Below are positions 5,620-8,650 of a stretch of DNA of 64,000 nucleotides, piece after piece; within the stretch, counting starts at the first letter, position 1, and every line of letters starts with the position of its first letter. Source of the stretch: Candidatus Desulfovibrio kirbyi (GTDB lineage Bacteria; Desulfobacterota; Desulfovibrionia; Desulfovibrionales; Desulfovibrionaceae); contig BLLL01000001.1 of the NCBI GenBank assembly GCA_013374015.1, forward strand, positions 62,001-126,000. Reading direction: 5' to 3'. The translations under genes were made by a program, and so were the position numbers. Under the pieces are notes generated by a model. The model was not told the DNA's origin. It saw only the letters and a list, made by a program, of their open reading frames with translations, and did no database searches.

Positions 5620-5709
5620 GGAGGGGTGGCAGAGCGGCTTAATGCGGCGGTCTTGAAAACCGTTGTGGGCTTGCACCCACCGGGGGTTCAAATCCCTCCC
5701 CCTCCGCCA
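5620..5709 (+). tRNA. tRNA-Ser (anticodon TGA)
   Basis: A 90-base class II tRNA. The acceptor stem is GGAGGGG paired with CCCCTCC. The anticodon arm GCGGT-CTTGAAA-ACCGT carries TGA. A long variable arm (TGTGGGCTTGCACCCACC) is present, then T arm GGGGG-TTCAAAT-CCCTC, discriminator G and encoded CCA. Its 3' end serves as the attachment site of the island that follows. Confidence 0.97.
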
Positions 5710-5710
5710 A
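5696..5710 (+). repeat. Left attachment repeat (within tRNA-Ser 3' end)
   Basis: CTCCCCCTCCGCCAA spans the last bases of the acceptor stem, the CCA and one base beyond. It is identical to 8636-8650. Confidence 0.85.
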
Positions 5711-5825
5711 ATTTATGCCTCAGGGCAGACCGGAAAGGCTAAACACCATTGGAAATCAAGGTTTTTAGCCTTTTTGTTTGCTTCAGGAAAGTTCAGAAAA
5801 GTGCTCGGAAGGTGGGTATAAATCG

Positions 5826-5843
5826 GGTAAAAATCAGGGTAAA
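5826..5843 (+). repeat. Candidate integrase arm-type site, left end
   Basis: GGTAAA-AAT-CAGGGTAAA lies just upstream of the integrase start. It matches 8559-8576 at 15 of 18 positions in the same orientation. Arm-type site function is inferred from position and pairing with the other end. Confidence 0.55.
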
Positions 5844-5869: not shown

Positions 5870-6193
5870 ATGCCCAAGACTATGCTTACAGACACGGTCA
5901 TCAGAGCGTTAAAGCCCAAGGACAAGCCCTACAAGGTCAGCGACGGCAAAACGGCGGCATGTTTTTCACCGTTTCCCCAAAGGGTAAAAAAGCGTTCCGG
6001 CTTGCCTACAAGTTCCAAGGCAAGGCGCAACTGCTTACCCTTGGGGCATACCCGGAACGTAGCCTGGAAGAAGCGCGCGATTTGGCACGAGAGGCAAAAA
6101 AAACAGCTTGCCGCGGAACAAACCCTGCCGCAACCAAAAAGGCTGAAAAAACCAGCTCAAGGCCGGAGAAAGCACCTTCCGTTCTGTAAGTGA
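5870..6193 (+). pseudogene. Truncated, frameshifted tyrosine integrase (arm-binding domain only)
   Basis: The start, behind a GGAGG site, reads MPKTMLTDTVIRALKPKDKP, the N-terminal arm-binding domain (DUF4102 type) of phage or island integrases. A frame change in GGCAAAACGGCGGC near 5945 moves the reading to GMFFTVSPKGKKAFRLAYKF and LLTLGAYPERSLEEARDLA. A second change in an A8 run near 6097 returns it to the first frame (KKQLAAEQTLPQPKRLKK). The core-binding and catalytic domains (R-H-R-Y) are absent. It sits next to tRNA-Ser, as expected for the integrase of this island. The two shifts could be sequencing errors, but the truncation is real. Confidence 0.85.
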
Positions 6194-6379
6194 GACATTA
6201 AAGACTTTGGCAAGGGCTTCCAAGGTGTCCAGCGTGGGATTGGCTATAGCTCGTTCAATTTCGCTGATACGGGCAATGGAAAGATTCGTCAGATTGGACA
6301 GAACCGCTTGCGATAGTTTGGCCTTTTTCCGTCTTTCAACGACCTGCCTTGCCAGAAATGTCTTGATTTCATTCGCCAT
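6035..6379 (-). CDS. XRE/Cro-family transcriptional regulator
   Basis: The first 70 or so residues form a helix-turn-helix domain: RRKKAKLSQAVLSNLTNLS, ISEIERAIANPTLDTLEALA, KVFNVSL. The ATG at 6379 has AGGAGA eight bases upstream. Beyond residue 75 the frame runs antisense into the integrase remnant (SWFFQPFWLRQGLF and on), so the C-terminus looks like accidental read-through after a deletion fused the two gene ends. It is divergent from the lipoprotein operon, with a palindrome between them, so it may control that operon or itself. Confidence 0.75.
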   Translation of the reverse strand: MANEIKTFLARQVVERRKKAKLSQAVLSNLTNLSIARISEIERAIANPTLDTLEALAKVFNVSLTERKVLSPALSWFFQPFWLRQGLFRGKLFFLPLVPNRALLPGYVPGMPQG

Positions 6380-6566: not shown

Positions 6567-6974
6567 ATGCGTAAGTTCTTTCATACTACTGGCATATTGT
6601 TATTGCTGCTTTCTGGATGTACCGGCGCGCAAACACACCGTGCCGATGTGGCCAACCAGGACAGTGATCGTATCAGCGTCGGTACCGTGCAACGCGAAAT
6701 TCGGATGGGGATGTCAGGCGCAGAGGTAATAAGCGCTATTGGATCTCCCAATATGGTAACAACAGACGATAAACGTCGTGAAACTTGGGTATATGATAAA
6801 ATATCTACAGAAAATGTATCTTCTTCTTCCAGTGGCGGGCTATGGCTTATTTTGGCTGGAGTAAACAATCGTGCTAGTGCAAGGTCAACTACACAACGTA
6901 CTTTAACAATTATTATCAAATTTGATGAGCATGGATTGGTGCGCGATTATTCATATAGACAGTCAAGTTTTTAG
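6567..6974 (+). CDS. SmpA/OmlA (BamE-like) lipoprotein
   Basis: A 135-residue lipoprotein with signal peptide and lipobox LLLLLSGC (Cys near residue 18). The mature part contains VQREIRMGMSGAEVISAIGSPNMVT and RRETWVYD, the helix-turn and strand pattern of the SmpA/OmlA fold shared with BamE. It then has a Ser-rich turn and RTLTIIIKFDEHGLVRDYSY. It is first in the island operon, nine bases before the next lipoprotein. BamE itself assembles outer-membrane proteins; here the partner is unknown. Confidence 0.8.
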   Translation: MRKFFHTTGILLLLLSGCTGAQTHRADVANQDSDRISVGTVQREIRMGMSGAEVISAIGSPNMVTTDDKRRETWVYDKISTENVSSSSSGGLWLILAGVNNRASARSTTQRTLTIIIKFDEHGLVRDYSYRQSSF

Positions 6975-6983
6975 GGAGCGATT

Positions 6984-7628
6984 ATGATTAAACGCGTTTC
7001 TATTCTCTGTGTATCCGTGATATTCTTATCCGCGTGTCAACCATCTATTCCAAAAGATGCCCTACTACTTACCCCGGAATCTCTCTCCAATAGGCAATTA
7101 CAAACTCGACGTTTTGAAACAAATAGCAATCAAACTATGTTGAGTTCTGCTGCGGCAGTAATGCAGGACTTGGGATTCACTCTTGAAGAGTCGGAATCCA
7201 CATTGGGTATATTGGTCGGGTCAAAACAACGGGACGCCACAAGCGGCGGTCAAATAGCAGGCGCAGTCCTTATTGCGCTCTTAGGCGGTACTCCTCCACC
7301 TCTAGATGAAGAGCAACGTATTCGTGTTTCCATGGTCATGCGTGAGATTACACCGTCACCATCAGCAGAAGAACCGCAAAAAGAGGTGACTCCACCAACC
7401 AAACCCATCAGAACGGACAAAGTTCCGGTCATTCTCCAAGCAAAACCTATACAAACAGCCGATATTAAGACATCAGGGCAGTCTATTGTACGCGTGACAT
7501 TCCAGCGTATTATCATCAATACAGCTGGTCATGTCACACTAGCAGAACAAATAAACGATCCAGATGTATATAAAGAATTCTTTGATAAACTTTCACAGTC
7601 TGTATTTCTGGAGGCACATGAGATATGA
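6984..7628 (+). CDS. Island lipoprotein, paralogue of the next gene
   Basis: A 214-residue lipoprotein (signal peptide, lipobox VIFLSAC). Conserved blocks shared with the following gene are RQLQTRRFETNSN near residue 37, AAAVMQDLGFTLEESES, and a C-terminal DPDVYKEFFDKLSQSVFLEA. Between them is a hydrophobic GGQIAGAVLIALLGG stretch and a Pro/Lys-rich insert absent from the shorter paralogue. The stop overlaps the next start in ATGA, so the two are translationally coupled. Function is not recognised. Confidence 0.75.
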   Translation: MIKRVSILCVSVIFLSACQPSIPKDALLLTPESLSNRQLQTRRFETNSNQTMLSSAAAVMQDLGFTLEESESTLGILVGSKQRDATSGGQIAGAVLIALLGGTPPPLDEEQRIRVSMVMREITPSPSAEEPQKEVTPPTKPIRTDKVPVILQAKPIQTADIKTSGQSIVRVTFQRIIINTAGHVTLAEQINDPDVYKEFFDKLSQSVFLEAHEI

Positions 7629-8041
7629 AAAAATATATTCTCCTCCTAATTTGTGTATGTTTTCTTGGTGGGTGTGTCGCCTCCGCGAGACAAGGGGTGA
7701 TGGATACAAATGGTGAATCACAAGTAAAAATTCGTCAAATGCAAACGCGCTATTTTGACTCTACAGACAAGAAGACAACAATGGATAGTGCCATTGCAAC
7801 ATTACAAGATCTTGGATTTATCATCGACAAAGCATCCTTTGACCTCGGTTCAGTCAGTGCCACCAAGCTCAAAGGGTATAGTCTGCGTATGACAGTAAAT
7901 GTAATGCCAAGAGGCCAGCGGATGATAGTGCGCGCCAATGCACAATATAATATCCAAGCAGTCACAGATCCTGAACCATATCAACAATTTTTTGATGCCT
8001 TATCAAAAAGTATGTTTTTGCAGGCGCATCTCGACGAGTAG
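7625..8041 (+). CDS. Island lipoprotein, shorter paralogue
   Basis: A 138-residue lipoprotein with lipobox VCFLGGC. It shares RQMQTRYFDSTD, AIATLQDLGFIIDKAS and DPEPYQQFFDALSKSMFLQAH with the gene before it, so the pair arose by duplication. The middle (LRMTVNVMPRGQRMIVRANAQ) looks like a beta-rich domain. Function is not recognised. Its coupling to a longer paralogue suggests the two products work as a hetero-complex at a membrane. Confidence 0.75.
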   Translation: MKKYILLLICVCFLGGCVASARQGVMDTNGESQVKIRQMQTRYFDSTDKKTTMDSAIATLQDLGFIIDKASFDLGSVSATKLKGYSLRMTVNVMPRGQRMIVRANAQYNIQAVTDPEPYQQFFDALSKSMFLQAHLDE

Positions 8042-8204
8042 CAATACATTCTTGTGCGGGGTAAGCCCGCATGAATGATTCGCTCCATACGTTGACCCTC
8101 GGATCGCATTTTTTCTTCTCTCGTATAAAAACTGGTGGAGGGCTGGACGGGGTACACACAAATTCCGACCAGCTACCACTAAAACTTGTTGCGGGAGGTA
8201 AATT

Positions 8205-8369
8205 ATGTGGCCGGTAATTTTGTTATATGTGTTATTCAAGCTGCTGTTCACCGCCGTAGGCGCGGTAATCATAGGGCTAATTTTTGTGGGTATGCTCGCA
8301 AAGGCCGCATTGGGTAGCAAGCCTGATGCAGCAATCGCCGATAAAAATCCCAAGCTAATAAACCAGTAA
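8205..8369 (+). CDS. Small single-span membrane protein (54 residues)
   Basis: A short frame with a good GGGAGGT site ending five bases before the ATG. It reads MWPVILLYVLFKLLFTAVGA and continues hydrophobic to about residue 34, followed by a polar tail ending NPKLINQ. It is last in the island, about 160 bases after the lipoproteins. The strong ribosome-binding site and a clean membrane segment support a real gene. No family is recognised. Confidence 0.6.
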   Translation: MWPVILLYVLFKLLFTAVGAVIIGLIFVGMLAKAALGSKPDAAIADKNPKLINQ

Positions 8370-8558: not shown

Positions 8559-8576
8559 GGTAAATTCCAGGGTAAA
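8559..8576 (+). repeat. Candidate integrase arm-type site, right end
   Basis: GGTAAA-TTC-CAGGGTAAA is the partner of 5826-5843, same orientation, differing only in the three central bases. It lies 60 bases inside the right attachment repeat. Confidence 0.55.
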
Positions 8577-8635: not shown

Positions 8636-8650
8636 CTCCCCCTCCGCCAA
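8636..8650 (+). repeat. Right attachment repeat of the island
   Basis: CTCCCCCTCCGCCAA is identical to the tRNA-Ser 3' end at 5696-5710. It is the copy expected after site-specific integration. Confidence 0.85.

Follow-up and report, generated by a model that had tools for sequence, protein, structure and literature searches.

Three consecutive lipoprotein genes of Candidatus Desulfovibrio kirbyi, here called E, A, and B, form a real, conserved module, which in this genome lies on a small island within the window, i.e., the whole 64,000-nucleotide stretch of DNA that was analysed. Judging from predicted folds, the cassette looks like a mobile version of the BAM accessory lipoprotein set, with one BamE-like and two BamC-fold members. 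What the module does, we infer from its folds and its genomic company: mobile elements probably alter the host surface through the trio, and perhaps keep rival phages out. Stated in full, our preferred reading is that the trio is a BAM-accessory-like lipoprotein module of mobile elements, which changes BAM or some outer-membrane protein to the element's benefit and most likely excludes other phages. We give this reading a probability of roughly one in three (0.35).

A conserved lipoprotein operon

All three genes are on the forward strand. E (6567..6974) encodes a BamE-like lipoprotein of 135 aa, while A (6984..7628) and B (7625..8041) encode lipoproteins of 214 and 138 aa with a predicted BamC fold. 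The gap between E and A is only 9 nt, and the stop of A overlaps the start of B as ATGA (7625-7628), which, together with the shared strand, makes it very likely that E, A, and B are one operon. The original prediction, made from the DNA letters and their open reading frames, had placed these three genes and a fourth at 8205-8369 (+) correctly. It had also correctly described the ATGA overlap, the three lipoboxes (LSGC in E, LSAC in A, and LGGC in B), and the motifs common to A and B (QTR[RY]F, QDLGF, and DPxxYxxFFDxLSxSxFLxAH). The paralogy of A and B that it drew from these motifs is confirmed by profile-profile comparison (99.8% probability, E 8e-30). A has a proline-rich insert at about residues 127-165. 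Scans for promoters and terminators gave results near chance. In E. coli, a lipobox without Asp at the +2 position directs a lipoprotein to the outer membrane. Asp is found at +2 in 0 of 48 lipoboxes, and the E. coli rule thus points to outer-membrane sorting of the trio proteins.

We surveyed 743 sampled genomes, 345 from the host phylum and 398 from the phylum of Pseudovibrio, and found E in 11 and 8 of them, respectively. An A/B-like lipoprotein is directly downstream of E in 19 of these 19 genomes, with the linkage in G769 taken from hit coordinates and some copies in G180 and G267 cut by contig ends. Few genomes (about 2-3%) have the module, in a patchy pattern, while the linkage is nearly absolute; one Pseudovibrio genome has A and B without E. 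The full E-A-B order occurs in Azospirillum chromids (L011, L012), on an 8-kb Acinetobacter plasmid (L013), in a Kiloniellales MAG (L001) and another MAG (L002/L080), in a genome of the host's order (L014), in further genomes (L064, L065, L073-L075), and in viral contigs. Some lineages have E with a single A/B-like protein (L069-L072, L076-L078, L115-L117), and such a pair may be the older form. A comparison of co-occurrence and gene order, as the original prediction had suggested, found the homologues together in conserved order across unrelated islands, plasmids, and phages, and therefore not mostly apart. For two Azospirillum strains dN/dS is 0.03-0.07, and for a pair of phage copies it is 0.16-0.30, which shows that the module is under purifying selection.

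The proposal of an undescribed envelope system had included a small membrane protein and a facing XRE regulator along with the three lipoproteins. The lipoproteins hold up as a candidate system in that they stay together, in order, and under purifying selection, whereas the other two genes are not conserved with them. The 54-aa membrane protein (8205..8369, +) is a plausible gene, preceded by GGGAGGT, but tblastn matches only the window copy. The divergent XRE-family regulator is present at 6035..6379 (-; Pfam HTH_3, E 3e-13), but it is without a match in other trio loci and is probably local. Neither gene has a counterpart beside the other trios compared, and both were dropped from the module.

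Two variants of the arrangement were seen along the way. The genome G003, which is of the same genus, has a decayed E-A pair downstream of guaA (L015 6027-6838). The two related 2.0-Mb genomes G701 and G769 have an expanded array (L079 8569-11458), in which one strand carries B-like, B-like, E, B-like and the other B-like, A-like.

Predicted folds of the three lipoproteins

The BamE likeness that had been claimed for E is real, although the window copy scores 21.8 bits against Pfam BamE (PF04355), under the cut-off of 23.2 bits. Some of its relatives exceed the cut-off (e.g., 24.7 in G041), and the profile of the E family matches solved BamE structures (E 7e-4). Like BamE (SmpA/OmlA), E is a small lipoprotein with a BamE domain, to which 10 of 11 E-family members match at E ≤ 0.01. 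Unlike BamE, the E family has a Gly-rich hydrophobic insert and is always paired with A/B. In addition, most Pseudomonadota carriers have a separate, strong BamE elsewhere in the genome, so E in those organisms is an addition to the host BamE and not a replacement. We considered whether E might be the host's only BamE, as the window's genome has no other by PF04355 at E 0.01, but given the Pseudomonadota carriers this cannot be generalised. The window E also matches phrog_3135 (E 4e-12), a family matched by 10 of 11 E proteins, which for its part is without an assigned function or recorded partners in its library.

A and B are harder to place by sequence. Searches against Pfam, NCBIfam, PHROGs, PADLOC, and PDB sequences returned no usable match, and among 19 A/B proteins there was no Pfam match at E ≤ 0.01, PF06804 (BamC, also NlpB) included. 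AlphaFold models built with 19-row alignments have good pLDDT values of 88.5 for B and 85.5 for A. Compared with the PDB, the 13 best matches of the B model are all BamC (E 4.7e-6 to 1.7e-4), and the first nine Foldseek matches of the A model are also BamC, though weaker (E 2.7e-3 to 5e-2). A viral structure library gave no match at E ≤ 0.001. In VIA-align, B superimposes on BamC with Z 9.5 and an rmsd of 2.8 over 93 residues, and Flpp3, Bet v 1-like, and KA1 domains tie with BamC. The predicted fold class of A and B, helix-grip, is secure; because of the tie with other helix-grip folds, the BamC-specific reading is likely, though unproven. An hhalign comparison of A/B with E. coli BamC was not significant, so the link to BamC is a structural one.

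BamC itself consists of two helix-grip domains and a long N-terminal region that binds BamD. The N-terminal domain is the best match to the predicted fold of B. In contrast to BamC, the models of A and B have one domain each with a short N-terminal segment, and A/B are distinguished further by the missing PF06804 match, by the lack of a significant profile alignment, and by their occurrence as two paralogues per operon. With these models, A and B, families without a Pfam entry, gain a fold-based identity, and phrog_3135 gains a likely context.

The tRNA-Ser island and carriage by phages

The original prediction had placed the cassette on an island, which is borne out by a perfect 15-bp direct repeat at both ends and by low G+C. 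The island is integrated at tRNA-Ser(tga), its integration site (5620..5709, +; ARAGORN), the 3' end of which constitutes the left attachment-like repeat CTCCCCCTCCGCCAA (5696..5710, +); the right copy is at 8636..8650 (+), and the repeats bound 2.94 kb. At 44.3% versus 53.7% for the window, the G+C content of the island is the lowest among 245 equal window tiles. GC3 of the trio genes is 35-38%, compared to 61% in the neighbouring speA. Between the tRNA and the trio is the degenerate start of a tyrosine integrase (5870..6193, +), comprising an arm-binding region with a broken frame, the rest having been lost. It has no Pfam match of its own; its translation resembles the start of an intact 400-aa integrase with arm-binding, central, and catalytic domains, found after the same tRNA-Ser in a relative (L178, G008). 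The island in the window is thus a decayed integrative element on which the reading frames of the trio cargo are still open. An empty site spanning the whole island was sought, but in none of the 29 relatives examined does a tRNA-Ser adjoin speA.

Similar reading frames follow this tRNA-Ser in G808 (L175) and in G010 (L173, cut by the locus end), so that, with L178, at least three related genomes have an integrase downstream of it; the site is therefore an integration hotspot in the genus. Direct repeats of the GGGTAAA type occur near both island ends (5815-5843, 8559-8576) and are possible integrase arm sites. Separately, in G387 an E-A pair directly adjoins speA (L070 643-3843), the gene that also flanks the window island, on its other side, which may be coincidence or a shared site.

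Phages carry the module as well. On viral contigs it is found near a confirmed terminase (L081, L093, L094), portal (L082, L032), head protease (L082), or tail fibre (L085). The adjoining phage gene varies from contig to contig, as is typical of a moron but not of a structural gene. These matches come from IMG/VR contigs; tblastn searches of the "phages" collection with A or E returned no match. In a tree of the concatenated trio, the window copy groups with the phage copies L081, L085, and L090 (ultrafast bootstrap/SH-aLRT 93/92) and is nearest to L081 (94/88), with other copies of its phylum placed apart. The A proteins of the window and of these same three phage copies also have an insert in common at a single position, about residues 127-165 of the window protein; that of L032 is shorter. 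We conclude with moderate confidence that the nearest relatives of the window copy are phage copies. Other settings include a locus in G514, where a pair of E and one A/B gene lies close to the TraU and TraN genes of an F-type T4SS, and chromosomal copies without recognisable mobile genes.

Possible functions of the trio

How might such a module act? In the mechanism that we envisage, E, A, and B would have their lipid anchors in the outer membrane's inner leaflet and bind one another. From the periplasmic side, the trio would dock on the BAM of the host or on one specific outer-membrane protein, and docking would alter the assembly or conformation of surface proteins. A lysogen or island carrier could thereby become less accessible to competing phages, whether this is called superinfection exclusion or lysogenic conversion, and the copy in the window would be cargo stranded on a decayed integrative element. 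We hold only tentatively to the more specific idea that a BAM-accessory mimic on mobile elements plugs into outer-membrane assembly and changes which surface proteins, phage receptors included, are made or accessible.

The original prediction had offered defence, phage exclusion, adhesion, or transfer, and among these phage exclusion appears best supported by context. On L090 an OLD-family nuclease gene is upstream of E-A-B. Another viral contig (L083 608-8048) has type III Mod and Res genes and a PDC-S06 ATPase after B. These two phage copies beside known anti-phage genes, which come from a scan of chosen neighbours, are suggestive. For a prophage moron beside OLD and restriction-modification genes, exclusion of phages would be the most economical advantage. 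The trio proteins and the 54-aa protein are without a credible match among PADLOC profiles.

There is a precedent in Llp of phage T5, a periplasmic phage lipoprotein that closes an outer-membrane receptor (PMC9586334). The superinfection-exclusion lipoproteins Llp and Cor are, like the trio proteins, periplasmic lipoproteins encoded by phages at moron positions (PMC9586334). They differ in that each is one small protein that blocks one receptor, whereas the trio consists of three larger proteins with BAM-like folds. The copies on phage contigs are phage-encoded lipoproteins in the same sense, while the window copy is on an island, not a phage. A test of Cor homology gave a weak match of phrog_1119 (E 0.004) to the first 38 residues of B, signal peptide included. 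We found no description in the literature of exclusion at the level of outer-membrane biogenesis, and literature searches for BamC-like proteins, or for BamE with superinfection exclusion, turned up no account of the module. Small lipoproteins that singly block one receptor are already known from phages; if our reading is true, a conserved three-gene set resembling an assembly machine would be a new route for an element to control the host surface. The trio is compact enough for direct testing.

Some observations go against this explanation. A recognised defence neighbour is present on only two of the phage contigs, A/B and BamC are not connected by sequence profiles, chromosomal copies exist without recognisable mobile genes, and E varies less than expected of an exclusion protein. 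The trio could instead have an auxiliary role in outer-membrane assembly and help BAM to insert or stabilise particular outer-membrane proteins, to the benefit of element or host, e.g., during envelope stress, with no anti-phage role. This is a possible alternative, consistent with the BamE and BamC folds, with copies on chromosomes and chromids without phage genes, and with the strong conservation and purifying selection. BamC was detected by PF06804 in 0 of 20 trio carriers, which speaks for this reading, but this profile is narrow and found BamC in only 1 of 14 controls. Moreover, most Pseudomonadota carriers already have BamE, and the patchiness of the module and its frequent carriage by phages better suit a conflict or conversion gene.

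Conflict could also take another form, i.e., immunity or self-protection, in which the BamE-like and BamC-like lipoproteins would neutralise a toxin or bacteriocin that acts in the periplasm or targets lipids. Among the immunity proteins of Lipocone toxins, a BamE-like superfamily is reported to be the most widespread (PMC12419801). E shares with those proteins a membrane anchor and a BamE-like domain, and the module travels on mobile elements. However, the Lipocone immunity proteins accompany toxins and evolve rapidly (PMC12419801), whereas E is conserved, at 40-59% identity across lineages, and inspection of the flanks by eye recognised no toxin gene. We regard an immunity function as unlikely, though it is, with auxiliary assembly, one of the two main rivals to phage exclusion.

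The remaining two readings fare worse than phage exclusion. It is very unlikely that the trio belongs to the late phage programme, as a lysis or particle component left as a relic on chromosomes. It does lie among late genes (terminase, portal, tail) in several phage contigs, but the change of neighbour between contigs is that of a moron, and the module persists under purifying selection on chromosomes and plasmids without phage genes. Support of a transfer apparatus, or surface exclusion of conjugation, is highly improbable: no transfer genes lie near the module on phages or small plasmids, and the one locus in its favour is the G514 pair near TraU and TraN.
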